Under the pieces are notes generated by a model, which was not told the DNA's origin, made no database searches, and worked only from the letters and a program-made list of their open reading frames with translations. From Ignavibacteria bacterium (lineage in GTDB: Bacteria > Bacteroidota > Ignavibacteria > Ignavibacteriales > Melioribacteraceae): a DNA stretch of 34,926 nucleotides. Position numbers and translations under genes: made by a program. The DNA is taken from positions 1-34,926 of the forward strand of contig WPAE01000044.1 in NCBI GenBank assembly GCA_009773205.1, in the 5' to 3' direction. Positions 3,545 through 20,583 of the stretch are shown one piece after another (position 1 is the stretch's first letter; each line of letters begins with the position of its first letter).

Positions 3545-3551
3545 TCTATCT

Positions 3552-4430: not shown

Positions 4431-5035
4431 ATAATATCAACTCCTTTTATTTGATTTATTGCTATTCCAGGTTGAACATCAATATCAATCATTGAATTGA
4501 TAAGAAATATTTTTTCATACTTAAGCATATCTTTCAAAGCGATATCTCTTTCGAGAATCATGCCGTCATCAAGAAGTTTCTGCCGCTTTGTTCCGTTAAG
4601 CAAATAAGTAGAAGGCGTGTAAAACTTTCCTTCTTTAGAGAAAACAATGTTTGAATAACTTGTATCTGTTACAAATCCGTTTTTTATAATTAAAACTTCA
4701 TCCGCCGTGCATTTGCACAACAGTTTTTGCAGGTTGCTTCTATCTTCATATTTGTAAGAGTAATTAACTTCATCTCCATTTACAATTTGGAGCGAGCCAA
4801 TAGTTCTCATTATGTAAGGATGAAATTCTACATCGTGAATAATTTCAGAATACAAAACTCTAACCTTGAAGACCGAATCCGAAATGCCTGTTGGAATTTT
4901 AATTTCGCTTGATAAATCAATCTTATTGTTCAAGCCAAACAAATCTCGTTGCGAAGTATTAAAACGCCTCTGATGATACTCCAAATTGCAAAGATTTCTG
5001 CGGCTTAGTTTTATTGTTTCAAGTAAACGGAACAT
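4427..5035 (-). CDS. pabC: Aminodeoxychorismate lyase (class IV aminotransferase fold)
   Basis: This PLP enzyme would release pyruvate from 4-amino-4-deoxychorismate to give p-aminobenzoate for folate synthesis. At 202 residues it is shorter than E. coli PabC (about 270), as is common in this phylum. Family marks are the N-terminal LETIKL / YHQRR segment, the presumed PLP lysine (Lys95, in SYKYEDRSNLQ), the ADEVLIIKNGFVTDTSYSNIVF block and the cofactor-side STYLLNGTKRQKLL segment. It starts inside the end of pabB, with a 17-bp overlap. That overlap and the neighbour favour the PabC assignment over a branched-chain aminotransferase. Confidence 0.8.
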   Translation of the reverse strand: MFRLLETIKLSRRNLCNLEYHQRRFNTSQRDLFGLNNKIDLSSEIKIPTGISDSVFKVRVLYSEIIHDVEFHPYIMRTIGSLQIVNGDEVNYSYKYEDRSNLQKLLCKCTADEVLIIKNGFVTDTSYSNIVFSKEGKFYTPSTYLLNGTKRQKLLDDGMILERDIALKDMLKYEKIFLINSMIDIDVQPGIAINQIKGVDII

Positions 5036-5996
5036 AAATTTTATCTATTAGCTCCTGATATTCTGATTTTACATTGCTCATAAAAGTAATGCCTCCGCCG
5101 CTTCGGTAAAACAAACCTTCTTGCGTATTCTCTATGAAACGAATCATAACAGCACTATCAAGATTATTTCCATCGTAATAACCAAAAACTCCTGTATAGA
5201 AACCTCGTTTAGTTTTTTCGGCGCTTTGAATAATCTCAACCGTTTTTTTCTTTGGTGCGCCGGAAATTGAGCCGGCTGGAAGCATAGAAAAAATTATATC
5301 GCCCAATTTACTATTGTAATCTGCGCCAAGCTCGCCAACTATTTTTGAACTGACTTGAAGTAAACTTTTTTTGTTTGTTTCTATTCTATCAATGTAGCGG
5401 AATCTTTCTACTCGAACATTTTTTGCTGCAATGCTCAAATCGTTTCTTATTAAATCAACTATGGTTGTGTGTTCTGCAGTTTCTTTTTCGTCTGACAGAA
5501 TAATTTTTTCAGCATTCGGTATCGCTGCATCAATTGTTCCCTTCATTGGATATGAAGAAATTACGCCATATTCAATTTTTACAAAACACTCCGGCGAAAA
5601 AACAACAAACTTGTTTTGGAATAACAACTTGTATTTAGCTCTGCTGAAAACAAAAATATCGTCAAGGGTTAGATTGGTTTTAATCTTAGTAGGAAAAGTT
5701 AGATTGGTTAGATAACTATTTCCGAGAGTTATTTGCTTTATCACATAATCAAAAGCAATTGAGTACAGAGTAAAATCTATCGGTTGAATTTGGAATTCTA
5801 TTTCTTTTGAAGATAAGTTGCTCTCTGTAGAACCTATTGAATATTCTATACCGTACTCGGTCAACTCATCACAGGAAACAACAAACGAATTATCCATTTC
5901 GAAATCAACTAAAAACAAAAACGGTCTTCTTTGTAAGCCGTAATTGTTCATTGCGTTAATAGCTTTTTGCTTTTTCAAAACGATGTTATCGAGCAT
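5019..5996 (-). CDS. pabB: Aminodeoxychorismate synthase component I
   Basis: This chorismate-binding enzyme aminates chorismate to 4-amino-4-deoxychorismate. It has the compact form (about 325 residues) lacking the long N-terminal domain of TrpE and E. coli PabB. The diagnostic C-terminal blocks are all present: AEHTTIVDLIRNDLS, MLPAGSISGAPKKKTVEII, GFYTGVFGYYDG, AVMIRFIE and RSGGGITFMSN followed by SEYQE. I chose the ATG at 5996. A TTG at 6005 is only three bases from the GGAG at 6009-6012, whereas the ATG is twelve bases away, so the start is uncertain by three codons. No glutamine amidotransferase (PabA) lies nearby, so ammonia must come from a TrpG/PabA encoded elsewhere. Confidence 0.88.
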   Translation of the reverse strand: MLDNIVLKKQKAINAMNNYGLQRRPFLFLVDFEMDNSFVVSCDELTEYGIEYSIGSTESNLSSKEIEFQIQPIDFTLYSIAFDYVIKQITLGNSYLTNLTFPTKIKTNLTLDDIFVFSRAKYKLLFQNKFVVFSPECFVKIEYGVISSYPMKGTIDAAIPNAEKIILSDEKETAEHTTIVDLIRNDLSIAAKNVRVERFRYIDRIETNKKSLLQVSSKIVGELGADYNSKLGDIIFSMLPAGSISGAPKKKTVEIIQSAEKTKRGFYTGVFGYYDGNNLDSAVMIRFIENTQEGLFYRSGGGITFMSNVKSEYQELIDKIYVPFT

Positions 5997-6024
5997 GTTT
6001 TTCAACTTCTCCGTTCCAGCGTTT

Positions 6025-7371
6025 TTATAAAACTTTGTTTAACGCGAAGGAAAGATTTTCTACGCCAACAATTTCGATACTAGCTTTGGTTTTGATTGTT
6101 TTTATATTATTGAAAGGAACTACAACCCTCTTAAAACCAAGCTTAGCTGCTTCATGAATTCTTTTTTCGATGTGGTTAACGCTTCGCACTTCTCCGCCTA
6201 GCCCAACTTCACCAATTACAACAGTATCGTTTCGTGCAAACTTATCCGAAAAATTTGAAGCAATGGCGCAACAGATTGCAAGATCAACCGCCGGCTCATC
6301 AATTCTAATTCCACCAGCAATATTTAGAAAAACATTTTGAACTGAGAGGCGAAGGTTTGCTCGTTTTTCCAAAACAGCAAGAAGTATAGAAAGACGGCGG
6401 TAATCAAAACCGGTTGCTACACGCTGAGGATTTCCGTAAGATGAAGGCGTAACCAGAGCTTGTACTTCTAACAGAATTGGCCGCGTTCCTTCGATGCTTG
6501 ATGTTACTACCGAACCTGTTGCATGTTTATCACGCTCACTTAAAAATATTTCGCTCGGGTTAAGAACTTCTCGTAATCCGTCATCGTGCATTTCAAAAAT
6601 GCCTATCTCGTTTGTACTGCCAAATCTGTTTTTCTGCGCGCGCAAAACCCGGTAAGAATAACTTCGCTCACCTTCAAACTGAAGAACAGTATCAACTACA
6701 TGCTCCAGAATTTTTGGACCTGCTATCATTCCTTCTTTTGTAACGTGCCCAACTATTATTATTGCGCAATGTGATTTTTTGGCAAGCTGCATCAGTTCAA
6801 CAGTGCATTCTCTAATTTGAGTTACTGTTCCCGGTGCATTTTCAAAATCTGGTTTATAAGTCGTTTGAATCGAATCTACAATAACAACTTTTGGCTCAAG
6901 CTTTTTAATTCCGCCGATAATTATATCCAAATCAGTTTCGGTCATAATCGAAATTTTTTCGCCTGTTACTTTTAAACGCTTTGCCCGTAGGCTTATTTGG
7001 TTTGCCGATTCTTCTCCAGTTACATACAAAACATCGTCATCAATTTTGCTTGCGGCTTGCATTACAAGAGTTGATTTACCAATTCCAGGATCGCCGCCAA
7101 TTAGCACAACCGAGCCAGGCATTAAACCGCCGCCAAGTACACGATCAAACTCTAATATATTTGTTTTTACACGCTTTTCAGATTCAACTACTTGCTCGCT
7201 CAACTTAGTTATTTGATGATCTGAAACATGACTTTTCCTTCCTGTCTTTTTCTCTTCAATCAGTTCTTCTAAAAAAGTATTCCAGCTTTCGCAAGACGGG
7301 CATTTGCCAATCCATTTAAGCGATTCGTATCCACAGTTAGAGCATACATATTTAATCTTATTTCGTGCCAT
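6025..7371 (-). CDS. radA: DNA repair protein RadA
   Basis: RadA is a RecA-like, DnaB-type branch-migration ATPase that processes recombination intermediates. The 448-residue protein shows the whole architecture. It has an N-terminal four-cysteine zinc finger (Cys10, Cys13, Cys24, Cys27), Walker A GGDPGIGKS at 92-100, and Walker B VVIVDS. The RadA-specific KNRFG motif is at 247-251, and a C-terminal Lon-protease-like domain contains the GEVGLGGEVRSV block. Its ATG shares one base with the stop codon of the upstream ABC ATPase gene, so the two are probably translated together. Length and motifs are normal. Confidence 0.96.
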   Translation of the reverse strand: MARNKIKYVCSNCGYESLKWIGKCPSCESWNTFLEELIEEKKTGRKSHVSDHQITKLSEQVVESEKRVKTNILEFDRVLGGGLMPGSVVLIGGDPGIGKSTLVMQAASKIDDDVLYVTGEESANQISLRAKRLKVTGEKISIMTETDLDIIIGGIKKLEPKVVIVDSIQTTYKPDFENAPGTVTQIRECTVELMQLAKKSHCAIIIVGHVTKEGMIAGPKILEHVVDTVLQFEGERSYSYRVLRAQKNRFGSTNEIGIFEMHDDGLREVLNPSEIFLSERDKHATGSVVTSSIEGTRPILLEVQALVTPSSYGNPQRVATGFDYRRLSILLAVLEKRANLRLSVQNVFLNIAGGIRIDEPAVDLAICCAIASNFSDKFARNDTVVIGEVGLGGEVRSVNHIEKRIHEAAKLGFKRVVVPFNNIKTIKTKASIEIVGVENLSFALNKVL

Positions 7372-8099
7372 TAGAATCCGGTTCTTTGAATAAATTTTTG
7401 AATTACAGAATCAGTACTGTTAAGCAGTTCATCGGGTGTTCCGGTAAAATAAATTTTGCCTTCGTGCATCATCGCAATTTTATCCGCTACATTTTTTACG
7501 CTAAACATATCATGCGTAACAATAATTGAAGTAGCCATAATTTTTTGATTCAAATCTTTAATCAAATCATCAATCGAATCGGACATTATCGGGTCTAATC
7601 CAGTTGTTGGTTCATCATAAAGAATATAACTTGGGTTAGTAACTAGGGCACGCGCCAAGCCAACTCTCTTTTTCATTCCGCCGGAAAGTTCTGCGGGTTT
7701 TAATTTTTGTGTATTTGGCAAACCAACCAACGCTAATTTATCTGCAACAATTTTTGCAATTGCTTCTTTAGATTCAACATTGTTTTCGGTCAAAGGAAGC
7801 GAAACATTTTCTTCCACAGTCATAGAATCGAACAAAGCCGCTCCTTGAAAAAGAAAGCCAAACCTCTTGCGTGTTTCGTAAAGTTCTTTGTTGTTCATTT
7901 CGTTGATAATTCTGCCTTCGAATTTTACATAGCCTTTATCGGGTTTAAGAAGCGCAACAATATGTTTTAGTAATACACTTTTGCCGCAGCCGCTTTTGCC
8001 TATAATTGCAAGAGATTCTCCTTCTCGAATTGTAAGATTTATCCCGCGCAGTACCAAATTTTTGCCAAAACTTTTGTGAAGATCAACTATTTCTATCAT
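7371..8099 (-). CDS. MlaF/Ttg2A-type ABC transporter ATPase
   Basis: This 242-residue ATPase has Walker A GKSGCGKS (34-41), a Q-loop in the form FLFQGAALFDSMTVEENVSLPL, signature LSGGMKKRVGLARAL, Walker B YILYDEPTTGLDP and switch VTHD. The LFDSLTV-type Q-loop and the SGGM-KRV signature are typical of MlaF, the ATPase of MCE-dependent phospholipid transporters that maintain the outer membrane. The MlaE permease and MCE protein normally next to it are absent here: upstream lie a repeat element and an unrelated cytochrome gene. The ATG at 8099 was preferred over a TTG one codon earlier. No clear ribosome binding site is visible. It is the first gene of the operon running to 3290. Confidence 0.88.
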   Translation of the reverse strand: MIEIVDLHKSFGKNLVLRGINLTIREGESLAIIGKSGCGKSVLLKHIVALLKPDKGYVKFEGRIINEMNNKELYETRKRFGFLFQGAALFDSMTVEENVSLPLTENNVESKEAIAKIVADKLALVGLPNTQKLKPAELSGGMKKRVGLARALVTNPSYILYDEPTTGLDPIMSDSIDDLIKDLNQKIMATSIIVTHDMFSVKNVADKIAMMHEGKIYFTGTPDELLNSTDSVIQKFIQRTGF

Positions 8100-8154
8100 C
8101 AAGTAATCGAAGGATTTGTTGAGTGAAATATATAAAAATTGAGTTGTATTTGAT

Positions 8155-8283
8155 TTAAGGGCACTTCTAAAAATAAGTGTTTATAAAATTTTACCCACGC
8201 CGAAAAACGGCGGGCGGGCGCAGAGTTCGATAAGAAAACGCAAAGTCCGCAAAGAATATTGATATTTTTAGAGGCGCCCTTAA
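8155..8283. repeat. MITE-like element, family 2, copy 1
   Basis: This is a 129-bp segment bounded by inverted repeats of about 21 bp that differ at two positions. The left end reads TTAAGGGCACTTCTAAAAAT, and the right end, on the opposite strand, reads TTAAGGGCGCCTCTAAAAAT. The interior contains CGCAAAGTCCGCAAAGAATA and a GC-rich CCGAAAAACGG hairpin. The same ends and part of the interior recur at 19283-19387. It lies in the 5' region of the mlaF-radA-pab operon, about 55 bp before its first start codon, and contains no coding sequence. Confidence 0.75.
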
Positions 8284-8293
8284 GAGTTTACCC

Positions 8294-8328
8294 AAAAAAA
8301 ATCCACAGTGTGTGCCGTGGATTTTTTT
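8294..8328 (-). terminator. Intrinsic terminator of the cytochrome gene
   Basis: AAAAATCCAC and GTGGATTTTT form the stem around a ten-base loop, with a T run on the minus-strand side just after the cytochrome stop at 8341. T runs exist on both strands, so it may work in both directions. Confidence 0.8.
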
Positions 8329-8340
8329 GAATTCGTTTTA

Positions 8341-9852
8341 TCAGTGTACTAGCGATGTGTGACAATCCGAACACAGCATGCTTTTCCATTTATCGCCAAC
8401 ATCAGTTCCGGGGTGCTTAAAATCCAATGCGCCAAAAAGCGAAGCTTTTTCCAGCTTATTTGTGTATCCCTGAGCATTAATTGTATGACACAAGTTGCAA
8501 TCCATTCTAATTACTTTTCCATCGGCAGATTTATGATTATCGTTATGACATCTGAAGCAGCCTTTAAATTCAAGATGCCCGATGTTGTTTGGATAAACAT
8601 TCCACTTTACCTTCATTTCTGGAAACATATTTTTATTGAATTCTGCTTGAATTCCCGAAATCGCTTTATCAATTAAAGATTTTTGGTTTTTGAACACTTC
8701 TGGATAGTTGGCTTTGTAAAAATCGAGAACGCCGTTAGAAATCTCCTTCATTGCTTCATCGGTTGTTGCGAAATTATTTTCAAGAATATCCAGAGCAATA
8801 AATTTAATTCTAGGAAGTTCTTTTGGTATAGAGCCAGATGTGATAGCATTGTTTAAAAAATAAACCGGATGCTGATAATTATGAGATGGTCTGTTGTGGC
8901 AGTCCATACAATCTACTAATCTTGTTTCTAATGTTTCGAGTTTTCCATTTGCAACTTTCTGGTTTGGGTCTTCATACACAATAACTTCTCCAGTTTTCAG
9001 ATTAGTATATCGAACCCAGGGAATGATCTCGCGTTTTTTATCAGCAGCTTTGTATTCAATTTTTACATCTGGATTAATATGCCAGTGTATGCCTTCTTGA
9101 AGTCCGAGAGCGCTAAGGGGCGCACCTATTTTCATAGTTAAAGAAATATCCCATTCAGAATTCTTTTCATCGGAGAGATAATGCTTAGTCTGTCTTAATT
9201 TTCTCGAATAGAATTTTTCTGGCCAGTGGCATTCTTCGCAAGTTTCTCTTGCCGGACGCAAATTAGCAATTGGAGTTTCAATTGGTCTCGGAACGGTTCC
9301 AAGTGTTACCGCATAAACTTGGTACAAGCCAGAAAGTTTTGAACGCATATACCAATCGGCGCCAGTGCCAACGTGACAGTCAACGCATCGCACTCTTGCG
9401 TGCGGAGAGTTTTTATAAGCAACATATTCCGGCTTCATTACTTCGTGGCAGACTTTGCCGCAGAATTCTACAGATTCTGTATAGTGAAAAGCTTCGTAGC
9501 TTCCTACAGCAGAAGCAAGCAGAAAAACTGATGTTCCTGCTGCAAATATCATTGCGGCGTGTCTTTGTTTTACATCATTAAAATTTATTACTGGCCAGCC
9601 TTTTGTCACTTCGCCAGAAGTGCGTTTTTCTTTTCTAATTTTTAACCACATTCCCAATGGAATGAGAAGAAGCCCAATAAATAGTACGCCTGGCAGCAAC
9701 ACGTAAATAATTAAACCAAGATATGTGTTGCCCGTTCGAGTTACAGAGGATATAATAAATAGGAACACAATCATTGAAAATGTAATTACTGCAACTGTGG
9801 CTCCTACAAGAGAAATCCAATTTTTAGATGAGTCTGGAAGTTTTAGCTTCAT
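8341..9852 (-). CDS. Seven-haem NapC/NirT-type membrane cytochrome c (ImcH-like layout)
   Basis: This 503-residue protein has three hydrophobic segments near the N-terminus (about 14-36, 44-70 and 99-118) followed by a periplasmic multihaem domain. Haem-binding motifs start at Cys131 (CGKVCH, a CX3CH variant), then CXXCH at 156, 205, 315, 432, 452 and 494. The region around the first haems (EFCGKVCHEVMKPE, SPHARVRCVDCH) is the NapC/NirT signature, so it should take electrons from the quinol pool and pass them to periplasmic partners. Three helices plus seven haems resemble Geobacter ImcH more than four-haem NapC or NrfH, which is inferred from layout only. No partner reductase is adjacent. 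A terminator follows directly, so the gene appears to be transcribed alone. Confidence 0.88.
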   Translation of the reverse strand: MKLKLPDSSKNWISLVGATVAVITFSMIVFLFIISSVTRTGNTYLGLIIYVLLPGVLFIGLLLIPLGMWLKIRKEKRTSGEVTKGWPVINFNDVKQRHAAMIFAAGTSVFLLASAVGSYEAFHYTESVEFCGKVCHEVMKPEYVAYKNSPHARVRCVDCHVGTGADWYMRSKLSGLYQVYAVTLGTVPRPIETPIANLRPARETCEECHWPEKFYSRKLRQTKHYLSDEKNSEWDISLTMKIGAPLSALGLQEGIHWHINPDVKIEYKAADKKREIIPWVRYTNLKTGEVIVYEDPNQKVANGKLETLETRLVDCMDCHNRPSHNYQHPVYFLNNAITSGSIPKELPRIKFIALDILENNFATTDEAMKEISNGVLDFYKANYPEVFKNQKSLIDKAISGIQAEFNKNMFPEMKVKWNVYPNNIGHLEFKGCFRCHNDNHKSADGKVIRMDCNLCHTINAQGYTNKLEKASLFGALDFKHPGTDVGDKWKSMLCSDCHTSLVH

Positions 9853-10550: not shown

Positions 10551-10663
10551 TTTTTCTCCTCTGTTTGGTTTTTGTACTGTTAATTTAAGCTAAAGAAACG
10601 ATTACAAGCAATCCGAATTTGCAATGATTATATTAGAATAGCCGTTAGCTATTAACTTATTAG

Positions 10664-10875
10664 AGACAGCTGAAAAATTAATCTATTGTCACACCTGCTT
10701 GCATCAGGCAAGCTGAGCCAGTCGCCCGCCTGATGAGCCGAAGGCGTCCGCCTCGGCAAGCCGAAGGCGAGACGGGAGACGGGAGGCAGGAAGTGTGGCA
10801 ATTTCGTTTGTAGTGTCATGGTTCGACAAACCCTGTCATGAGCTTGCCGAATGATCACCATGACAAAAAAATATT
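10664..10875 (-). repeat. Modular interspersed repeat, family 1, copy 1 (overlaps priA start)
   Basis: Read on the minus strand, this copy has blocks C then B followed by the conserved tail GTGACAATAGATTAAT and a decayed right end (AGCTGTCTC instead of AGATGTTTC). It lacks block A and the left terminus found in the other two copies (15238-15456, 20341-20523). Its block C (10824-10875) is identical to that of the third copy and extends through the priA start codon into codon 6, where similarity stops. Confidence 0.85.
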
Positions 10876-13319
10876 TTCCATTACCATTTAGAAATTCTTT
10901 TACTTACTCAATCCCAGATGAGTTCCGCCAATCTCTGAAGGTTGGCGTTCGGGTTGTGGCGCCGTTTGGAAAAAGAGTACTTACAGGTTTTGTAATTGGT
11001 TTAACAGAAATTACAGATGTAAAGGAAAAAATTAAACCAATCCGCGATGTGTTAGATGAACTGCCAATCTTTGATGAAACATCTATAAAATTTTACGAAT
11101 GGATTTCCGAATATTATATCAGTTCACTTGGCGAATCTTTGCGCAACTCCGTTCCATACGGAAGCGATGTTGAATCCAAACGCAAAATTGTTGTAGATAT
11201 AAAATTCTGCTCGCAGCTTTATGACCAAGAAACAAAGAAGAATTCTCCGAGAGCAAAACTTTTAAGCGTTCTTGCGGAAAAAGAAGTTCATCATATTTCG
11301 GTGCTTCAGAAACAATTAAAAACAAAAAGTATTTACTCACCGATTCGCGCCTTAGAAAAAATTGGCGCAGTAACAATTCTCGATTTAGTAGAGCATGGCA
11401 AAGTACGCGTAAAAACCGCAAAGTTTGTTCAATTAGCAAAATCTTTAGATGAGGTTTACGCCGCTATTCCAGAAATGGAAAGGAAGTCCCCTAAACAAGT
11501 TGTTGTTCTTTTAGAGCTAATTTCTAAAAAGGAAGGCTTACAGCAATCAGAGTTATTAAGTAGAACCGGAATAAGTCAATCGGCAATACAAAGTTTAGAG
11601 AAAAAAGGCTTTGTAGAAGTAATTGATAAAGAAATAGAGCGGGTTTACTCCGAAGTTTATACTGAATCGTTTAAGGATTTTGAACTAACCGAAACACAAA
11701 ATAATGTTGTAGAGCAAATTGGAAAAAAGATTGAAGCCGGCGAATTTGAAACTTTTCTTTTGCACGGAGTTACCGGAAGCGGTAAAACTCAAGTTTATAT
11801 TGAGCTTGCAAAGAAATCTTTGGCAAAAGAAAAAAGTGTAATTATTCTTGTCCCCGAAATTTCACTAACGCCACAAATTACTTCCCGCTTTTATAATCAC
11901 TTTAAAGATAAGATAGCCGTTTTGCACAGCAGAATGTCGCTCGGCGAGCGTTACGATTCCTGGCGCGGAATAGTTGCCGGCAAATACAGTTTGGTAATTG
12001 GTCCTCGCTCTGCCTTGTTCGCACCTTTGAAGAATGTTGGATTAATTGTAGTTGATGAAGAGCACGACCCGAGTTACAAACAGTATGATCTCATTCCAAA
12101 ATATCATGGAAGAGATGCCGCGATAATTCGCGCAATGCACAGCGGCTGTCCGGTGCTGTTAGGTTCGGCAACTCCTTCTGTAGAAAGCATGTACAATGCT
12201 TTAACTAAAAAATTTACTCTTCTTGGTTTACCTGAGCGGGTTGACAAAGCAACGCTTCCTCACATTTGCCTTGTTGATTTAACTGTTGAAAAAAAGAAAA
12301 AGAAAATGGAAGGAATTTTTTCTCAATTGCTGTTAGAAGCAATTGGAGAGAGAATTAAGAAAAAAGAAAGCGTAATTATTCTTCAAAACCGAAGAGGATT
12401 TGCAACACAAGTCTTTTGTAACGATTGCGGCGAAGTTGTTATGTGCTCTGATTGCTCTGTCTCGATGGTTCACCATATCAATAAAAATATTTTGCAATGC
12501 CATTACTGCAATATTATTCAGCATGTGCCAAAAGCATGCCCTGTCTGCGGCTCAATCTCGCTTAAGTTCTTTGGAACCGGAACTCAAAGAGTAGAAGATG
12601 AACTGAGTTATTATTTCCCAACTGTTTCGATAGAAAGAATTGATTCCGATTCGATTAGCAAGAAGGGAAGTTTAGGAGAAATTCTAAACCGATTTCGCAA
12701 AGGAGAGATACAAATTCTTGTTGGAACGCAAATGGTTTCTAAAGGCTTGGATTTTGGCGATGTAACTTTAGTTGGCGTAGTTGCCGCAGAAACATCTTTG
12801 TGGATTCCCGATTTCCGTGCCGATGAAAGAACTTTTCAACTGCTAACACAAGTTGCAGGACGCGCCGGCAGAAGCGAGAAAAAAGGTGAAGTAATAATTC
12901 AAACACAGAATCAGAAACATTTTGTTCTTCAAAAAGTTTTGGATAACGATTATCAATCGTTTTATCAAAAAGAAATTGTTCTTCGAGAGCAAGGCGAATA
13001 TCCTCCATTTGTTAGGTTAGCGCTTATTGAAGTGAAGGATGAAAAAGAAGATAAATCCCGCGGAGCTATAAAGGATTTGTTTGAGATTTTGAAAAGAGAA
13101 TCGAAAGGGTTGAAGATAACTCCACCAACCGAAGCAATTGTTTATAAGATAAAAGGTTTTTTCCGCTGGCAGATTTTGATAAAGAGCCACAAAAAATTTG
13201 ATCCATCAGGCAAACTTTTGCGTGCCACTCTTCTGAATACTTTGATCGAGTTCAATCAGAAATCGCGGTATAGAGACGTTAAACTAATTGTTGATGTTGA
13301 TCCGCAGTCAATAATTTAA
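10860..13319 (+). CDS. priA: Primosomal protein N' (replication restart helicase)
   Basis: PriA recognises stalled forks and D-loops and loads the replicative helicase. The 819-residue protein contains the N-terminal DNA-binding domain (NSFTYSIPDEF to VVAPFGKR). Its helicase core has GVTGSGKT near residue 305, DEEHDPSYKQYD near 400, and the late motifs GTQMVSKGLDF and QVAGRAGR. Between the helicase lobes lies the eight-cysteine zinc region, at about 520-567 (CNDCG, CSDC, CHYC, CPVCG). I chose the ATG at 10860, although another ATG three codons upstream is possible. The start and the first five to six codons lie inside a dispersed repeat shared with 20341-20523. The usual strand before the LP motif is therefore shortened, and the native 5' region has been replaced. 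No ribosome binding site is evident. Confidence 0.95.
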   Translation: MTKKYFPLPFRNSFTYSIPDEFRQSLKVGVRVVAPFGKRVLTGFVIGLTEITDVKEKIKPIRDVLDELPIFDETSIKFYEWISEYYISSLGESLRNSVPYGSDVESKRKIVVDIKFCSQLYDQETKKNSPRAKLLSVLAEKEVHHISVLQKQLKTKSIYSPIRALEKIGAVTILDLVEHGKVRVKTAKFVQLAKSLDEVYAAIPEMERKSPKQVVVLLELISKKEGLQQSELLSRTGISQSAIQSLEKKGFVEVIDKEIERVYSEVYTESFKDFELTETQNNVVEQIGKKIEAGEFETFLLHGVTGSGKTQVYIELAKKSLAKEKSVIILVPEISLTPQITSRFYNHFKDKIAVLHSRMSLGERYDSWRGIVAGKYSLVIGPRSALFAPLKNVGLIVVDEEHDPSYKQYDLIPKYHGRDAAIIRAMHSGCPVLLGSATPSVESMYNALTKKFTLLGLPERVDKATLPHICLVDLTVEKKKKKMEGIFSQLLLEAIGERIKKKESVIILQNRRGFATQVFCNDCGEVVMCSDCSVSMVHHINKNILQCHYCNIIQHVPKACPVCGSISLKFFGTGTQRVEDELSYYFPTVSIERIDSDSISKKGSLGEILNRFRKGEIQILVGTQMVSKGLDFGDVTLVGVVAAETSLWIPDFRADERTFQLLTQVAGRAGRSEKKGEVIIQTQNQKHFVLQKVLDNDYQSFYQKEIVLREQGEYPPFVRLALIEVKDEKEDKSRGAIKDLFEILKRESKGLKITPPTEAIVYKIKGFFRWQILIKSHKKFDPSGKLLRATLLNTLIEFNQKSRYRDVKLIVDVDPQSII

Positions 13320-13385
13320 TCCGCCAGAGATGGACGAGGGTCAAATTCCCCGCATCTTGAGGCGAATAAATAAAATTTGTTTTCA

Positions 13386-13445
13386 GAAACTTCGCTGCCC
13401 CGCCTGCCAAAGCAAAGCGGCGGGCAGGTTGCGGCGAGGAGTTTC
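13386..13445. repeat. GC-rich imperfect palindrome
   Basis: GAAACTTCGC at the left and GCGAGGAGTTTC at the right frame CCCGCC/GGCGGG arms around AAAGCAAAGC. It stands out in an AT-rich spacer and resembles REP-type palindromes. It could also end priA transcription, but has no T run. A related phrase, GAAGCAGGCGGG, occurs at about 13533. Confidence 0.55.
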
Positions 13446-13496
13446 ATTTTGTTAACAACTGATATAGAGCGCATATTAAACTGATGAAGTAGTGAA

Positions 13497-13518
13497 AACC
13501 GATCTGTTTAAATCGGTT
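13497..13518. other. Small hairpin upstream of the pseudouridine synthase gene
   Basis: AACCGAT / ATCGGTT with an eight-base loop, about 80 bp before the gene. The role is unknown. A weak terminator or operator are both possible. Confidence 0.3.
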
Positions 13519-13598
13519 ACTTTAACATGCCCGAAGCAGGCGGGTCCGTGTTCTATTAAGAGTGTATTCTCGCGGCTATCAAGAAACTCGAAAAAGTG

Positions 13599-14207
13599 AT
13601 GAACAAGAAAAGATATTTTATTCTCTACAAACCATACGGAGTTTTGAATCAGTTCACCGATGGTGAAAACAGACCAACTCTTGCTTCGCTTTATAGTTTC
13701 CCCAAGGATGTTTATCCGGTTGGCAGACTTGATATGGACAGCGAGGGTTTACTTTTACTTACTAACGATAAGCAACTAACAGAGCGCCTTCTTAATCCTA
13801 AAAACAAGCATGAGCGGGAATACTTTGTTCAAGTTGAAGGAACTCCAACAAAGGAAGCTTTGCAAAAACTAATTAGCGGAGTTGCGATTGAAGGAAAGAA
13901 AACATTGCCTGCAAAAGCAATGTTGATTGATGATCCAAATTTTCCGCCTCGCAATCCGCCGATAAGAGAAAGAAAAACAATTCCAACAAGCTGGATTTCT
14001 TTAACCTTGATAGAAGGGAAAAATAGACAAGTGAGAAAAATGACAGCAGCCGTTGGCTTTCCAACTTTGCGTTTAGTTAGGGTAAGAATTGATAATTTGA
14101 TTCTCAGCGATTTGAAAGCAGGAGAAGTAAAAGAGATTTCGGGAAAAGAAATTAGTGTTTTAAAATGTAAAGACTCACCGCGGCGAGTCTCTACGCAAAA
14201 GTCTTAA
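13599..14207 (+). CDS. rluE: RluE/RsuA-family pseudouridine synthase without S4 domain
   Basis: The enzyme would isomerise a uridine in ribosomal RNA. The catalytic motif [16 protein letters not shown] places the nucleophile at Asp45. KPYGVL at the N-terminus and [10 protein letters not shown] followed by [12 protein letters not shown] complete the RsuA-type fold. There is no N-terminal S4 domain, which matches RluE (23S rRNA position 2457 in E. coli), though the target site is inferred by similarity of layout. Start is ATG 13599, with a GTG directly before it possible. The last residues ([13 protein letters not shown]) are encoded by a palindromic repeat-like sequence and do not look native, so the original C-terminus may have been overwritten. 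Confidence 0.88.
14171..14190. repeat. 20-bp near-perfect palindrome inside the rluE 3' end
   Basis: AGACTCACCG is followed directly by CGGCGAGTCT, with one mismatch. It encodes the odd C-terminal tail of the pseudouridine synthase and ends 17 bases before its stop codon. Confidence 0.5.
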
Positions 14208-14224
14208 CCCAAAAAGTAAGCCGA

Positions 14225-15061
14225 TTAACCCGTAAAGTTTCCTAAGAATGGAAACGTTTTTGTTAAGAAGTAAAATAGCAAACTAAAGCCAAGCCAAATA
14301 ACAACTACAGCAATCACATATTTCTTTACATCATCGGCTTTATTCATCTTTGCCAAGCCAATTCCAAAGACAACATAAAACCAAATTGAAAGCGGATTAG
14401 CCTTGCTTAACAAAAATCCGGTTGTTGTAGTTTTATCCATTCCCATTAAATCAGCGGCAGAAAGACCAGTCATTAATTTTCCCATAGCTAAAGCAGCAAT
14501 TACAGAAATAATTATTTCAATAACGGATATATACATTGGCAAGCCGTAAGCAACCATAATATCTTTGTATTCGCCTCCTCCTTTTAAGCCGTATTTAGAA
14601 ACAAGTAAGAAAAATCCGGTTACTACAAAAAAGACTATAAACATTCCGAAAGGGATTCCTACAACTAAACTAATTGTTTGAAACATATTTGCAGCCTCGC
14701 CGCTCATATTTTCTTGTATTTGTTCAAGCTGTTGGTCTGCTTGTTCTTGAGTCATTTTTCCTTCTTTAACTGCATCGTCAAGTCCCTTTTCAATGTTTTG
14801 CATCATTTTTTCTTGTTGCTGCAATTTAATTTCTGGGTTGCTCATCATTACAAATTGAGAAAGAATAGCAACAACAATTACAACTAAAACTGGAATAAGC
14901 CAATCCGAAGTTTTAGCCGGAAATTTAGCTATCCTGCTAAACATTGGCTGTGGTTCTGTAAAAACTCCAACAAGCTTATCGGTGTGAGTAAGTTCCTGTT
15001 CTTCTTGTGCATCTTCAACGGAGGACATCTTTGGTGCATCTTGGTTTTGCTTTTCTTCCAT
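14225..15061 (-). CDS. Yip1-domain-like multi-spanning membrane protein
   Basis: This is a 278-residue protein with a charged, low-complexity N-terminus (about residues 1-30), then TEPQPMFSRIAKFPAKTSDWLIPV, which is typical of bacterial Yip1-like proteins. Five hydrophobic segments follow. Between the first and second there is a Glu/Gln/Met-rich, probably coiled-coil stretch (MMQNIEKGLDDAVKEGKM to QIQENMSG). The function is unknown: family members are inner-membrane proteins without a clear role. The start was set at ATG 15061 because AAGGAG lies just before it. An upstream ATG at 15103 has no such site. It converges on the pseudouridine synthase gene with 17 bp between the stops. Confidence 0.7.
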   Translation of the reverse strand: MEEKQNQDAPKMSSVEDAQEEQELTHTDKLVGVFTEPQPMFSRIAKFPAKTSDWLIPVLVVIVVAILSQFVMMSNPEIKLQQQEKMMQNIEKGLDDAVKEGKMTQEQADQQLEQIQENMSGEAANMFQTISLVVGIPFGMFIVFFVVTGFFLLVSKYGLKGGGEYKDIMVAYGLPMYISVIEIIISVIAALAMGKLMTGLSAADLMGMDKTTTTGFLLSKANPLSIWFYVVFGIGLAKMNKADDVKKYVIAVVVIWLGFSLLFYFLTKTFPFLGNFTG

Positions 15062-15237
15062 TTGATTTCTCCTTGATTTTAATTTGGTGAGGTTGCCGAA
15101 CAAATTTAGTGAAAAAACTTAAATATTCTTTGTTGAATAAATGACGAAAAGATTATGAAATGCCTTCACCAATAATTAGAATCGGGATGAAATACAAATT
15201 GCTCGAAAAGCAAATTAACACGTTTAATAATATTTTT

Positions 15238-15456
15238 AAACATCTGAAATATTTACGCTAAGTCATGGTGAGTCTTCGACACAATCACTGCCTTCGCAGT
15301 GATTGGCTCAGACTGACATCCAGTACTCAATATTTTCAAACGAAATTGCCACACTTCCTGCCTCCCGTCTCGCCGCCTTCGGCTCATCAGGCGGGCGACT
15401 GGCTCAGCTTGCCTGCTGCAAGCAGATGTGACAATAGATTAATTATTCAGATGTTT
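15238..15456 (+). repeat. Modular interspersed repeat, family 1, copy 2
   Basis: This 219-bp copy has both termini: AAACATCTGAA at 15238-15248 and its reverse complement at 15446-15456. Inside are block A (with the perfect hairpin AATCACTG-CCTTCG-CAGTGATT and the phrase CAGACTGACATCCAGTACTC) and block B (CGAAATTGCCACACTTCCTG, the GC-rich GGCTCATCAGGCGGGCGAC). The shared tail then reads TGTGACAATAGATTAAT. It lacks block C. It fills most of the 480-bp gap between the divergent Yip1-like and tnaA genes. The rest of the gap is AT-rich, with no other recognisable feature. Confidence 0.88.
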
Positions 15457-15541
15457 CATTTTGTAAAACTTATATGTCTTCAATTCACTTTCAATTCTTT
15501 AATAATAATTCTTAATTTTCTTTCACTAAAAAAGAGGAAAA

Positions 15542-16912
15542 ATGAAAACCATTATTGAACCGTTCAGAATTAAATCTGTGGAGCCGATTAAGTTTACCAC
15601 AAAAGACGAGCGCGCAAAAATTTTAGAAGAAGCAGGCTACAATCCATTCTTAATTAAAGCCGAAGATGTTCTGATTGATTTGCTTACCGATAGCGGAACA
15701 TCTGCAATGAGTTCCTACCAGTGGGCTGGAATTATGCGTGGTGATGAAAGCTACGCCGGCGCAAAAAGTTTTTACCGCTTTGAAAGCGCAGTTAAAAAAA
15801 TTACCGGCGATACTTTTATAATTCCGACACATCAAGGAAGAGCTGCAGAGAAAATTTTGTTTTCCATTCTTGGCGGCAATGGAAAATATTTTGCTGCTAA
15901 CACTTTCTTCGATACCACACGAGCAAACATTGAGTTTTCCGGAGCGGAAGCTTTTGATTTGTTAAACGAAATCGGAAAACATCCCGAGCAGCGCGCGCCT
16001 TTTAAAGGCGATATGGATGTTATTGCTCTAGAGGCATTCATCAAAAAACATGGAAGAGAAAACATTCCGCTTGTTGTTTTAACTGTAACAAATAATTCCG
16101 GCGGCGGACAGCCTGTTTCGATGAAAAACATTAAAGAAGTTTCTTCTGTCTGCAAGAAGAATAACATTCCTTTGTTTTTAGATGCATGCCGTTTTGCCGA
16201 GAATGCTTACTTCATCAAAATGAGAGAAGACGGCTACAAAGACAAAACAGTTTTAGAAATCTGTAAGGAAATGTTTTCTTATGCCGATGGTTCAACAATG
16301 AGCGCGAAGAAAGATGCGCTTGTAAACATTGGCGGCTGGCTTTCTCTAAACGATGAAGAGCTCGCGTTGAAGTGTAGAAATCTTTTGATCGTTACAGAGG
16401 GCTTTCCAACTTACGGCGGATTAGCCGGAAGAGATCTCGAAGCAATTGCGCAAGGCTTAGATGAAGTTGTTGATGAACATTATTTGCAGTACAGAATTCG
16501 AAGTACAGAATATCTTGGTGAAAAACTGCTGAGCAACGGAATACCAATTATAGAGCCGCCTGGAGGGCACGCAATTTATATTGATGCAAAGCGCTTCGCG
16601 CCGCACATTCCGCCCGAACAATTTCCTGGACAAGCGATAACTTGCGAAATGTATGTTGAAGGCGGAATCCGCGCCTGTGAAATTGGAACAATTATGTTCG
16701 GCAAGTATGATGAAAATGGAAAAACAATTCCGGCTATGATGGAACTAGTTCGCTTGGCAATTCCGCGCCGAGTTTATACACAAAGCCACATTGATTACGT
16801 TGCTGAAGCTGTAATAGAAGTTTACAAAAAGAGAAACGAACTTAATGGCTACGCTTTTACTTACGAAGCGCCGATTCTGCGTCACTTTACCGCGAGATTT
16901 AAGAAAACATAA
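15542..16912 (+). CDS. tnaA: Tryptophanase (tryptophan indole-lyase)
   Basis: This 456-residue PLP enzyme would split tryptophan to indole, pyruvate and ammonia. The PLP-lysine motif MSAKKDA places the Schiff-base lysine at Lys257. THQGR, LDACRFAENAYFIK and TEGFPTYGGLAGRD are conserved in this family. Two positions separate tryptophanase from tyrosine phenol-lyase: Asp124 in FFDTT (Thr in the phenol-lyase) and the Ile of EIGTIMFG (Arg in the phenol-lyase). Both favour tryptophanase. AGAGG precedes the ATG. No short tryptophan-rich tnaC leader is present. The gene heads a co-oriented cluster with the next three genes. Indole signalling is a possible role, not shown here. Confidence 0.92.
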   Translation: MKTIIEPFRIKSVEPIKFTTKDERAKILEEAGYNPFLIKAEDVLIDLLTDSGTSAMSSYQWAGIMRGDESYAGAKSFYRFESAVKKITGDTFIIPTHQGRAAEKILFSILGGNGKYFAANTFFDTTRANIEFSGAEAFDLLNEIGKHPEQRAPFKGDMDVIALEAFIKKHGRENIPLVVLTVTNNSGGGQPVSMKNIKEVSSVCKKNNIPLFLDACRFAENAYFIKMREDGYKDKTVLEICKEMFSYADGSTMSAKKDALVNIGGWLSLNDEELALKCRNLLIVTEGFPTYGGLAGRDLEAIAQGLDEVVDEHYLQYRIRSTEYLGEKLLSNGIPIIEPPGGHAIYIDAKRFAPHIPPEQFPGQAITCEMYVEGGIRACEIGTIMFGKYDENGKTIPAMMELVRLAIPRRVYTQSHIDYVAEAVIEVYKKRNELNGYAFTYEAPILRHFTARFKKT

Positions 16913-16924
16913 ACCCCGCGACTC

Positions 16925-16970
16925 GGCGCTAAAATATTTCCGCAAAGACATAGAGAACGCAAAGGATAAA
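16925..16970. repeat. Fragment resembling the interior of repeat family 2
   Basis: TAAAATATTTCCGCAAAGAC and AGAACGCAAAGG resemble the interior of the copy at 19283-19387 (AAATATTTCACGCTAAGAAC on its minus strand). It fills the short gap between tnaA and the next gene. The similarity is partial, and no terminal repeats are seen. Confidence 0.4.
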
Positions 16971-17807
16971 ATGAAAAAGCACTTTGAATATATATCTGAA
17001 AAACAAATTTTCCGGCTGCTGTTAAGCGGCTCGGATAAACTGCTAATTGAAACACGAAACACAAACACTAAAGAAGTTTCTTTTAATTGTTTCGAACTGA
17101 TTAGCGGTAAGCAGATATTATGCGATTTGCAATTAGAAGAAAAAACATGGCTTGGTGTTGAAGCAATCTACAAAGACATTATTTTCTTTCACAAATTTCC
17201 CAAACCAAATATGCCGGGACACAAAGAAATAATTGCTTTCGATATTGCAGAGAAAAAAATAACCTGGCAGAATAAAGAGTACGCCTTTGCTTTTGTTTAC
17301 GAAGGCAAAGTTTATTGCTATACTCAAGGATTTGAAGAAAGATTCTTTTACGCGTTGGACTATTTGACTGGAGAAGTAAAGGAAGATATTGGAAGCAATT
17401 ACGCGCTAATAAATTCGCTTCGCACCCAAGCCGAAAACGCGAAAGATTGGTCGCCGTATGCTTTTCCTAAGTCAAACGTTGCTTACGCTGATGAATCTTC
17501 TCAGAAAATTATTACTCAGTTTACGGCAGCTTTTTCTTTAGTTGGGCAAATTGAATGGATTGTAAAAAACAACATTCTTTTGTTTACTTTTCATACCAAA
17601 GAGAAAAATGAAAAATTTACAAATCGGTTTGCTGCAATTTCTACAATTAACGGCGAAGCCTCTTTGTTTGAAACCTTAAACGAAAATGTAATGGCGCTGC
17701 TCACAGATTCTTTTTTTGTTTATAAAGAATATCTGTTTTTGTTAAAAGGGAAAAACGAAGTTTTGATTTACTGGTTAACGCAAGAACAACATTTGGGTTT
17801 GGATTAA
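16971..17807 (+). CDS. Protein of unknown function (DUF4905-like, uncertain)
   Basis: This 278-residue soluble protein has no signal peptide or membrane segment. It is built of repeating short beta strands (DKLLIETRN, KEVSFNCFELISGKQIL, EIIAFDIAEKKITWQ, VYCYTQGFEERFFYALDYLTGEV, NRFAAISTINGEASLF), which suggests a beta-propeller-like fold. A DUF4905 assignment seems possible, but I could not confirm it. The start was set at ATG 16971. The frame stays open further upstream, but that extension overlaps tnaA and runs through repeat-like DNA. It lies 58 bp after tnaA and 32 bp before the AMMECR1 gene, so it is probably part of the same operon. Confidence 0.7.
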   Translation: MKKHFEYISEKQIFRLLLSGSDKLLIETRNTNTKEVSFNCFELISGKQILCDLQLEEKTWLGVEAIYKDIIFFHKFPKPNMPGHKEIIAFDIAEKKITWQNKEYAFAFVYEGKVYCYTQGFEERFFYALDYLTGEVKEDIGSNYALINSLRTQAENAKDWSPYAFPKSNVAYADESSQKIITQFTAAFSLVGQIEWIVKNNILLFTFHTKEKNEKFTNRFAAISTINGEASLFETLNENVMALLTDSFFVYKEYLFLLKGKNEVLIYWLTQEQHLGLD

Positions 17808-17839
17808 GATCAAGAAAAAAATTAAGAGAAGAGATAGCA

Positions 17840-18394
17840 ATGGATTTAACTTCTGAAGAAAAGAAGATTTTGCTTGCTGCCGCAAGAAATTCGATTCTCT
17901 CACTTTTTGAAACCGTAACTATTGAAAAACCGGATTACAAAAAACATCCTGTTCTGAAATCACACTCGGGTGCGTTTGTTACTTTAACAGAAAACAAACG
18001 TCTGCGCGGATGCATTGGTTATATTATCGGCGATAAAGCGGTATTCGAAACTGTTTGCGAAGCTGCAATTCAAGCGGCAAAGTATGACCCGAGGTTTTCT
18101 CCAGTACGCAAAGAAGAGATAAAAGATATCTCGCTGGAAATCTCAATTCTCTCCAAACCATTTCCTCTTAACTGCTACGACGAAATTGAACTTGGCAAAC
18201 ATGGTTTAATTTTGCAAGAGCAAGGAAGGCGTGGTTTACTGCTTCCGCAAGTTCCTATCGAACACAAGATGAACAAAGAAGAATATCTCGATGCAATTTG
18301 CCAGAAGAGCGGGTTTAATAAAAGCTACTGGAAAGAGAAAGAACTAAAACTAAGTGCATTTACAGCAACAGTGTTTTCAGAAGAGGAGATATAG
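17840..18394 (+). CDS. amrA: AMMECR1-domain protein (AmmeMemoRadiSam system protein A)
   Basis: This 184-residue protein covers a complete AMMECR1 domain, including the invariant LRGCIGY motif (55-61), AAIQAAKYDPRFSPV, LEISILSKP, GLILQEQGRRGLLLPQVP and the C-terminal W-KE-L segment. The biochemical role is unknown. In many prokaryotes this protein is encoded with a Memo-like protein and a radical SAM enzyme. Here the Memo gene follows after one base, but no radical SAM gene is nearby. A purine-rich AGAGAAGAGA upstream may serve as the ribosome binding site. Confidence 0.9.
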   Translation: MDLTSEEKKILLAAARNSILSLFETVTIEKPDYKKHPVLKSHSGAFVTLTENKRLRGCIGYIIGDKAVFETVCEAAIQAAKYDPRFSPVRKEEIKDISLEISILSKPFPLNCYDEIELGKHGLILQEQGRRGLLLPQVPIEHKMNKEEYLDAICQKSGFNKSYWKEKELKLSAFTATVFSEEEI

Positions 18395-18395
18395 A

Positions 18396-19220
18396 ATGAA
18401 AACGGTACGTGAGCCGGCAGTGGCTGGAATGTTTTATCCGGCTTTCGCCCCTAAATTGAGGTCGGAAATTCAAGCGCATCTAACTTCTGTAAACCTTAAA
18501 AAAACTTTCGAGAATATTTTCGGTTTAGTTTCTCCGCATGCCGGTTATGTTTATTCAGGCAAAACGGCAGCATACGCATACAAAGCAATTCAAAATAAAT
18601 CTTACAAAACGGTTGTAGTTATTTCTCCAAGCCACAGAGAATATTTTCCGGGAATTTCCATCTATAGCGGCGATGCTTACAAAACCCCGCTTGGAGAAAT
18701 TGAACTTGATAAAGAAATGATAGCTAAACTTACTGAAGATAAGATCTTCATCTTTGAAGGTATAAACGGACACGGAGCAGAACACGCGCTCGAAGTTCAG
18801 CTTCCATTTTTACAAACTGTTCTTGATGGCTTCAAACTCGTTCCTATTGTAATGGGAGATCAACGAAAGGAATTTGTTTTTCACTTAGCAGAAAAACTTT
18901 CTCCATTGGTCAATAACGAAACATTAATTGTAGCAAGTTCAGATCTTTCCCATTTTCACACAAGAAAAGAGGCAGATAAACTTGATGCGGTTATAGAAAA
19001 TAGAATTTCTAGTTTTGATTACAACGGCTTGCTTGATGATCTTGAAAAGAATAAATGCGAATCATGCGGCGGCGGGCCAATTGCAGTATTATTAAGAACA
19101 GCCGAATTAAATGGAATTCAAAATGTAAAAATCCTTTCACGTACAGATTCTGGCGATGTTAGCGGAGATACAAATGAAGTAGTTGGCTATTTAAGCGCTG
19201 TTCTTTTTTCTTCTTCTTAA
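18396..19220 (+). CDS. amrB: Memo-family protein (AmmeMemoRadiSam system protein B)
   Basis: This 274-residue protein resembles human MEMO1 and the LigB-type non-haem iron dioxygenase fold. Residues matching the metal ligands of MEMO1 are visible: His48 in SPHAGYVYSG, His80 in SPSHREYF and Cys224 in SCGGGPI. Other family blocks are GHGAEHALEVQLPFLQ, PIVMGDQ and SSDLSHFH. The ATG at 18396 has AGGAG at the usual distance and lies one base after the AMMECR1 stop. In-frame upstream starts overlap that gene and were rejected. The actual reaction is unknown. Confidence 0.92.
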   Translation: MKTVREPAVAGMFYPAFAPKLRSEIQAHLTSVNLKKTFENIFGLVSPHAGYVYSGKTAAYAYKAIQNKSYKTVVVISPSHREYFPGISIYSGDAYKTPLGEIELDKEMIAKLTEDKIFIFEGINGHGAEHALEVQLPFLQTVLDGFKLVPIVMGDQRKEFVFHLAEKLSPLVNNETLIVASSDLSHFHTRKEADKLDAVIENRISSFDYNGLLDDLEKNKCESCGGGPIAVLLRTAELNGIQNVKILSRTDSGDVSGDTNEVVGYLSAVLFSSS

Positions 19221-19237
19221 TATGGGTAGTTACAGAA

Positions 19238-19276
19238 TATCGTCGTTCCTGCAAGTTACTTACGGAAACGACGATA
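19238..19276 (+). terminator. Long hairpin after the Memo gene
   Basis: TATCGTCGTT at 19238 pairs perfectly with AACGACGATA at 19267-19276, and the interior continues as imperfect complement. It is placed where termination of the tnaA-amr cluster is expected, but has no T run. Confidence 0.5.
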
Positions 19277-19282
19277 GCTCTC

Positions 19283-19387
19283 TTACGGGCACCTCTAAAA
19301 ATATCAATTTCCTTTGCGGGCTTTCCTTTTTCTTTGTGTTCTTAGCGTGAAATATTTTAAAAAAAAGTTTTTAGAGGTGCCCTTACG
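19283..19387. repeat. MITE-like element, family 2, copy 2
   Basis: This is a segment of about 105 bp with inverted termini, GGGCACCTCTAAAAA on the left and TTTTTAGAGGTGCCC on the right (15 bp perfect). The left half (ATATCAATTTCCTTTGCGGG) matches the opposite strand of the copy at 8155-8283. It lies between the convergent Memo gene and the Lys/Cys-rich gene, where its stem may also stop transcription. Confidence 0.78.
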
Positions 19388-19404
19388 TTAAACTTGCTTA
19401 TTAC

Positions 19405-20169
19405 TTATTTCTTTTTTTCCGTTATGGTTTCTTTCGATTCCTTTGTGTCTTTCTTTTTGTCAATAATAATATGCACCTCTTTATCATTAGAATCACTGCA
19501 TTTCATTTTCCACTTTATATTTCCTTTTCCACACTGCTTAATCTTAGCTTGCTCCTTGCCGCAATGTTTACAATAGTTTTTGCAGCAACTATCTTTAATA
19601 TTCTTATCAACACAAATTAGATGGTCTTTATCAGTTGTTTCATCGCCGCACACCTTCTTCATTATCACTTTTACTTTACCATCGCCTCCTTCTTCTGCAA
19701 TAAACTTATCGGCTTCTTCACCTACGTAGGTTTTTGTTTCTTCCTTGCCATCTTTTGAAGTGGTTACGGTAACATTCTTTTTACCGTCTTTAATTTCTAC
19801 CTTTACTTTTTTTTGCACGCCATCTTTTTTTAGGTCTATGTCTTCACACGTATTAGCAACACAGCAAGAAGCTCCGCCGCTTGTATAAATCTTTATTTTC
19901 TTTTTTTTGCCCGAAACAGTAACATCTTCCTCATCAGTGGTAACTGCGAGTGCTTTTATCACACCAGCGGCTTTAGCAATCTTTGCTATTTGCTCGGCTT
20001 CTTTTCCTTCAAACACAACGTCTTTGCCATCAACCTTAATTGTTACTTTTTCAATTTTTCCCTTGAGATTAGCTAACTTGTCTTTAGTTTCCTTTTCTTG
20101 GGCGTTCAAAGCAACTCCCAAAACAACTAACAGCATTATAACTGTCGTTTTCAAACAATTGATTTTCAT
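19405..20169 (-). CDS. Secreted lysine- and cysteine-rich protein, unknown family
   Basis: This 254-residue protein has a signal peptide (residues 1 to about 24, ending LNAQ). The mature part is very lysine-rich and has eleven cysteines: 102, 103, 108, 174, 186, 195, 196, 200, 203, 213 and 224. The densest group is CCKNYCKHCG at 195-204. A beta-beta-helix unit appears twice: KVTIKVDGKDVVFEGKEAEQ near 41-60, and SKDGKEETKTYVGEEADKF near 138-156. Metal binding or disulphide cross-linking outside the cytoplasm is a reasonable guess, but I do not recognise a family. AAGGAG precedes the ATG. The gene is alone on this strand. Confidence 0.75.
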   Translation of the reverse strand: MKINCLKTTVIMLLVVLGVALNAQEKETKDKLANLKGKIEKVTIKVDGKDVVFEGKEAEQIAKIAKAAGVIKALAVTTDEEDVTVSGKKKKIKIYTSGGASCCVANTCEDIDLKKDGVQKKVKVEIKDGKKNVTVTTSKDGKEETKTYVGEEADKFIAEEGGDGKVKVIMKKVCGDETTDKDHLICVDKNIKDSCCKNYCKHCGKEQAKIKQCGKGNIKWKMKCSDSNDKEVHIIIDKKKDTKESKETITEKKK

Positions 20170-20340
20170 TTTTTTGTTTCTCCTTTTGTTCGAGTTGTAA
20201 AAGATATTAGCTTATACAACGCGTTTCTGTAAAAAGTGCCGTTAAAAATGCAAAAACTAAAAAAAGTTTAGCTGTTCACATTTATAGCAGAAATTTCTTT
20301 AGTTTGGTAGAGATTAACAAAAAACTTTTCTAATTAATAG

Positions 20341-20523
20341 AAATATCTGAAATATTTACGCTAAGTCATGGTGAGTCTTCAACACAATCACTGCCTTCGC
20401 AGTGATTGGCTCAGACTGACATCCAGTACTCAATATTTTTTTGTCATGGTGATCATTCGGCAAGCTCATGACAGGGTTTGTGCTGCAAGCAGGTGTGACA
20501 ATAGATTAATTATTCAGATGTTT
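20341..20523 (+). repeat. Modular interspersed repeat, family 1, copy 3
   Basis: This 183-bp copy has a left terminus ATATCTGAAATATTTACGCT and a right terminus TTCAGATGTTT, block A nearly identical to copy 2, then block C (TGTCATGGTGATCATTCGGC to the AGGGTTTGT end) and the shared tail. It lacks block B entirely: block C jumps directly to CTGCAAGCAGGTGTGACAAT. It occupies the 414-bp gap between the divergent Lys/Cys-rich and DUF971 genes. The remaining part of the gap (20170-20340) is AT-rich and should hold the promoter of the minus-strand gene. Confidence 0.88.
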
Positions 20524-20583
20524 CAATATTTTTGGTTAGGTTTTTACTAATCCATAATAACGCAATTTGTTTCGAGGAGAGAA

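Follow-up and report, generated by a model that had tools for sequence, protein, structure and literature searches.

What are the three mosaic repeats that lie in a 34,926-bp stretch of an Ignavibacteria bacterium genome (hereafter, the window), and how did they come to carry different internal blocks? The window is one contig (WPAE01000044.1, C457 in our numbering) of the draft assembly GCA_009773205.1 (G000), which comprises 4.14 Mb in 476 contigs. We find that the three repeats are copies of a family of miniature inverted-repeat transposable elements (MITEs), that is, mini-transposons without genes. Taking all the evidence together, we consider it highly probable that these are non-autonomous MITEs that are moved in trans and that grew by the addition of blocks before single copies were independently shortened by deletion.

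The three window repeats and their family

The repeats share a tail, TGTGACAATAGATTAAT, which occurs exactly at 10677–10693 (−), 15427–15443 (+) and 20494–20510 (+). Allowing up to three mismatches yields the same three window matches only, and three matches were reached in 0 of 100 shuffles; the repeats reported in the first-pass annotation are thus real and lie where it placed them. Copies 2 and 3 have in common a 114-bp stretch of left end and block A (92% identity, some flank included), copies 1 and 2 share block B (84 bp at 94% and 35 bp at 100%) and copies 1 and 3 share 50 bp of block C at 100%. These pairwise stretches bear out the block contents that had been read from the sequence, namely C+B, A+B and A+C (Table 1). 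Copies 2 and 3 are two-ended; copy 1, as a correction, has a diverged right end and no left end.

Table 1. Window coordinates of the three MITE copies, their blocks and associated features (block limits of copy 1 come from a single alignment and are uncertain by 1–2 bases)
Feature	Position	Strand	Remarks
MITE copy 1	10663–10875	−	block alignment
Copy 1, diverged right end	10663–10693	−	GAGACAGCTGAA
Copy 1, D	10694–10712	−	
Copy 1, B	10713–10810	−	
Copy 1, C	10811–10864	−	
Copy 1, last 11 bp of A	10865–10875	−	left end and most of A missing
Start of priA reading frame inside copy 1	10851–10875	+	ATG at 10851 and 10860
Copy 2, target duplication, left side	15232–15236		ATTTT
MITE copy 2	15237–15457	+	block alignment
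Copy 2, left end	15237–15261	+	
Copy 2, A	15262–15336	+	
Copy 2, B	15337–15407	+	without a 20-bp piece
Copy 2, D	15408–15426	+	
Copy 2, right end	15427–15457	+	
Copy 2, target duplication, right side	15458–15462		ATTTT
MITE copy 3	20340–20524	+	block alignment
Copy 3, left end	20340–20364	+	
Copy 3, A	20365–20442	+	
Copy 3, C	20443–20480	+	about 38 of 54 bp
Copy 3, rest of D	20481–20493	+	
Copy 3, right end	20494–20524	+	

A DNA search of the whole genome with copy 2 returned at least 60 matching pieces, and 40 of 66 first-look candidates were scored. The family ends, GAAACATCTGAA/TTCAGATGTTTC and variants of these, form 12-bp inverted repeats. Among the fetched loci we found 50 clusters of paired ends, of which 48 were kept after a stricter end filter and two were dropped; these two-ended copies come from four genomes of one genus (30 from this genome, 10 from G003, seven from G001 and one from G004). 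Perfect 5-bp target duplications flank 28 of the 48, against 0.36 expected from mismatched left/right pairs (17 of 30 in this genome, 8 of 10 in G003, 3 of 7 in G001 and 0 of 1 in G004). Duplications of 4 bp (5 versus 0.74 expected) and 6 bp (1 versus 0.06) were also counted, and those of 2, 3, 7 and 8 bp occur at chance level. Window copy 1, without a left end, is outside this set; copy 3 has no 5-bp duplication, its flanks matching over only 4 bp (AATA).

The two-ended copies are 102–476 bp long and hold no transposase gene. Their inverted ends, a target duplication of constant length, a short, gene-less and many-copied body and ends shared with insertion sequences (ISs) of relatives are together the features by which we assign them to the MITEs. 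An end is missing from at least six copies of this genome (window copy 1, C248, C152:171653, C380:9201, C85 and C251), set against the 30 with two, as expected of a single element with shared termini; neither a majority of copies lacking those termini nor three independent repeats A, B and C, the findings that would have spoken for another view, was encountered. Our literature searches found no description of this family, which is our sole basis for calling it undescribed. The interval that holds copy 2 is ~335 bp shorter in G002 and ~1.6 kb longer in G001; the flanks of copy 3 were not found in the stretches taken from G001, G002 and G004. Contig C380 (positions 1–9400, L031) has three copies of the element in a span of 9.4 kb, and one of these contains an internal duplication.

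Block order, a short form and deletion junctions

We aligned copies to a composed 298-bp reference, L-A-C-B-D-R. Every block is present in C448 and C76 (305 and 312 bp), C327 (268 bp) is complete but for 30 bp of B, and nearly all blocks are present at C380:8304, where the outermost left end is missing. The order end-A-C-B-tail-end, put forward earlier as the simplest ancestor, is therefore seen directly in C448 and C76 and nearly so in C327. This form is probably not the deepest ancestor, to judge from a short form in G003 (108–119 bp) and G001 (121–153 bp, with small palindromes within its loops), in which the same kind of ends enclose two hairpins, GTCATGGTGAGCTTGTCGAACCATGAC and TCACACTTCGACAAGCTCAGTGTGA in G003, with no A, C insert or B. 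Loop 1 of the short form is the reverse complement of loop 2, so the whole short form can fold as one long hairpin. By eye, block C retains the outer arms of hairpin 1 with an insert in its loop, hairpin 2 has B inside its loop and the small palindrome D next to it, and A is similar to a portion of a sister family (type 2), whose ends are GAGACYTCTGAAAAATT. Of nine inserts and blocks tested for palindromes, five (A, D and three belonging to G001 and G004) exceeded shuffles at p < 0.02. In this genome, C149:7851, C365:7161 and C387:1411 are without A, C insert and D.

Copy 2 has lost C, and with it all of hairpin 1; copy 3 has lost B and the right arm of hairpin 1. Because both lack part of a hairpin that is whole in eight of the nine printed G003 copies (the exception being C323), we read their missing blocks as losses. 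The proposed block logic thus mostly holds; copy 1 is not a clean block loss, its left end being absent and its edge falling within priA. Larger internal deletions occur in nine two-ended type-1 copies that we picked after alignment (C352, C372, C387:26228, C436, C461, C467, C296 and window copies 2 and 3, C457:15237 and C457:20340), and their main junctions are all different, with 0–2 bp of homology in nine of nine cases (0 bp in copy 2 and 1 bp in copy 3). Six of the nine left breakpoints fall within 17 bp (reference positions 94–110), an interval that takes in a T7 tract and the foot of the C hairpin; simulation gives P = 0.0007, for a site chosen after looking.

The first-pass annotation had suggested slippage or recombination at short internal repeats. 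With 0 and 1 bp of homology at their junctions, this is not the explanation of the internal losses in window copies 2 and 3, and as the general cause of block loss we hold it to be doubtful. Other losses do fit repeats. A stands between two copies of a 10-bp repeat, GTCATGGTGA, and in C149:181601, C9, C296, C459 and C155:57316 precisely the block between them is missing, although an element without A could be the ancestral state; in C372, C467, C85 and C155:84520, B has lost 23 bp at an 11-bp repeat; and three A blocks stand in tandem in C390 (positions 1072–1326, L032), within a mixed-end copy.

Such mixed-end copies would also suit a cassette of independent modules in which each copy was assembled separately, with no full-length ancestor, because they set two end types on the same interior: C390 and C61:60767 have a type-1 left and a type-2 right end, and C415 has the reverse. 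None of these three has a perfect duplication, compared with 17 of 27 others (p = 0.07, suggestive only). The core of B occurs 19 times in this genome and its reversed control not at all; 15 occurrences belong to this family by position and three are further ones, and the remaining one, a close match at window position 28682 within an apparently different element, likewise fits modules that travel separately. The existence of all-block copies and the junctions of copies 2 and 3, which cut into hairpin 1, nevertheless make separate assembly improbable. That the mosaics are false, made by collapsing reads of different copies, is something we give very little credence: the assembly is fragmented and C421, C465, C380 and C365 begin or end inside or beside copies, but perfect duplications flank six of the nine block-deleted copies and the family is present in three other assemblies of the genus.

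Under growth by blocks followed by deletion, the founding form would have been ~110–130 bp long, with inverted ends enclosing a pair of hairpins that have mutually complementary loops, TGAGCTTGTCGAA and TTCGACAAGCTCA. The C insert and B would have entered the loops in this lineage, with D beside them; A, the piece resembling the sister family, would have joined in front to give the ~300-bp A-C-B form. Single copies may afterwards have undergone independent deletions, mostly starting close to the T7 tract described above. Internal deletions that spare both ends would leave a shortened copy still mobile, some deletions may have run outward and removed one end with flanking DNA (as in copy 1, at the start of priA), and mixed-end copies could stem from recombination between sister families. 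The element itself is most likely selfish. A series from a 110-bp two-hairpin MITE through a 300-bp block-built form to deletion derivatives would allow module gain and loss to be ordered.

A putative IS5-family partner

No transposase for the element is seen in the window, as had been noted. Ends of the same kind are found on ISs of relatives and tie the family to a partner of the IS5 family. The left ends GAAACATCTGAAAAATT and GAAACCTCTGAAATATT, for example, adjoin transposase frames with DUF772 and DDE_Tnp_1 domains. A Melioribacter contig (L139) holds an element with such ends and a split transposase gene, whose pieces match PF05598 (DUF772, 64.5 bits) and PF01609 (DDE_Tnp_1, 73.4 bits), both above cut-off; its best NCBIfam model is NF033581 (IS5 family), where the frameshifted gene scores 130.2 bits on one piece and 96.4 bits on the other, against a cut-off of 140. 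After this first element come a second end, GAAACATCTGAAAAATT, and the start of a similar gene. End identity reaches 18 bp between G003 copies and the first IS of L139, and 13 bp between copies of this genome and the second. Similar ends precede transposase starts in L124, L132, L146 and L152 and occur at L133 and G001:C10, and in G001 and G004 contigs break inside ends starting GAAACCTCTGAAATATT or GAATCCTCTGAAATATT. The ISs of Melioribacter and Stygiobacter relatives (NF033581-like; L139, L103, L106, L124 and L146) share the outer ends of the MITE, whereas they carry a transposase gene and their interior is unrelated. We therefore regard movement in trans, as the first-pass annotation supposed, as plausible, and an IS5-family transposase as most likely its agent, on the strength of these matching ends.

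Relatives of the L139-type transposase (E ≤ 1e-15) were found in five of 79 family genomes, including the genome from which the query came. Among about 100 of 105 end matches listed for this genome, distant end pairs gave no autonomous partner, and in viral contigs six stretches matched a transposase pattern, none of which was confirmed. The pair C398:7936/10431 was rejected as an autonomous element: no transposase lies between its ends, one of which falls within a gene resembling ATP synthase beta. On the same contig a frame that looks Cas6-like by eye lies near ATP synthase genes (2467–3261, L057).

Several observations weigh against our account. In this genome a transposase protein search gave no matches (a 476-contig draft may lack the gene), the IS end gave none either, and none of six PF01609 loci has the family's end pattern. 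The sole IS for which both ends were seen, that of L139, has a frameshift, and no clean 5-bp duplication can be read from its flanks. Thirteen of the 30 copies in this genome are without a perfect duplication, the all-block C448 and C76 included, and the nine deleted copies were our own choice. For the G003 form the best computed fold is a single long hairpin instead of two (z = −6.9), the C insert (0.44), B (0.41) and two others are no more palindromic than shuffles, and the copies without A could be either ancestral or derived.

Copy 1 at priA, related systems and other elements

The gene adjoining copy 1 is priA by NCBIfam, and both of its candidate ATG codons lie within the copy. Homology to G001 resumes at the edge of copy 1, at TTTTCC.TTACC. 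The PriA N-terminus is M[FY]CQVVFPLPFRNSFTY (M[FY]CQVV) in G001, G002, G004 and G005, and here it reads MTKKYFPLPFRNSFTY (MTKKY) or MITMTKKY; no element copy was found in the 200 bases upstream of priA in those four genomes. Copy 1 thus seems to supply the start codon of priA, with either ATG as the predicted start, and in this conserved replication gene both the start codon and the first residues seem to have been replaced by those of a mobile element. The start codon is most likely a by-product that was put to use. The absence of copy 1 from this site in four relatives also bears on whether the repeats are a structured RNA or regulatory element under selection rather than a mobile one. Their folding is strong (z −3.6 to −6.9 relative to shuffles across five folds) and all three window copies sit between divergent reading frames, but target duplications are present, blocks are freely lost and Rfam gave no match in eight sources, so we think a selected, immobile element very unlikely.

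The closest known systems are BrickBuilt/MITE464 of Porphyromonas and the pneumococcal BOX elements, and the family described here is a variant of such elements. According to excerpts of PMC4596501, BrickBuilt and MITEPgRS/MITE464 of Porphyromonas gingivalis have ends such as GAGACCTTTGCA that were likened to IS5-family elements. They too are Bacteroidota MITEs, with ends similar to our type-2 ends, GAGACCTCTGAA, a leader/interior/tail make-up, one-ended copies, long stem-loops and a MITE inside a MITE; unlike the family here, with pieces set in hairpin loops and a constant 5-bp duplication, BrickBuilt has a 23-nt tandem repeat as its interior and flanking duplications of unequal length. BOX elements of Streptococcus pneumoniae, as excerpts of PMC3049150 describe them, are composites, boxA-(boxB)n-boxC, with repeats inserted in one another; boxC holds the start codon of an expressed frame at some loci, and BOX bears only some resemblance to ISSpn2 ends. 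Composite build, nested repeats and a start codon within the element recur here, the comparison being one of architecture, whereas BOX modules are tandem boxB units. Repetitive extragenic palindromes likewise nest small palindromes in larger ones but are GTAG- or CGTC-tagged and lie outside MITEs with 5-bp duplications (excerpts of PMC3733652); prokaryotic MITEs are reviewed in PMC10969869 (excerpts).

One hairpin loop recurs in the phylum. The pattern TTCGACARGCTCA is present in 35 of 61 genomes drawn from it. By our own summation it occurs 253 times and the reversed pattern 13 times; at least six occurrences are found in each of 14 genomes and 0–3 in the rest, the six of G118 falling within 20 kb. 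Of 33 distinct occurrences at 30 loci, three of which appear to be from Stygiobacter itself, 15 have complementary arms of at least 3 bp (2.0% at random places) and five of at least 6 bp (0.04%), and the 18 without such arms are possibly ordinary coding sequence. In 785 kb of loci, which include overlaps and many loci fetched for this element or motif, TGAGC...GTCGAA with arms of at least 5 bp gave 12 distinct hairpins, whereas each of 12 permuted controls gave none. We found no mention of the loop 14-mers in the literature. Speculatively, the loop TGAGCYTGTCGAA (TGAGC^YTGTCGAA), whose arms change yet stay complementary, might be a landing site for small palindromes, such that elements grow by nested capture, perhaps via single-stranded hairpin intermediates, and block repeats are layered records of capture. 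This recurring hairpin with its conserved loop gives a testable starting point for asking why bacterial palindromes come to lie inside one another.

The window also holds other elements. A second MITE is present in two copies (8159–8279 and 19287–19382), with ends GGGCACYTCTAAAAA/TTTTTAGAGGYGCCC and flanks TTAA and TTAC; four more distant transposase loci in other genomes (L141–L144) have similar ends, GGGCAYYTCTAAAAAC. A MITE-like element at 28636–28814, with ends AGATTGTCTCAA/TTGAGACAATCT by eye, has in its interior a TGAGC...GTCGAA stretch that includes a sequence closely matching the GC core of B. An IS630-family transposase, broken into several frames, lies at 602–1736 (−).

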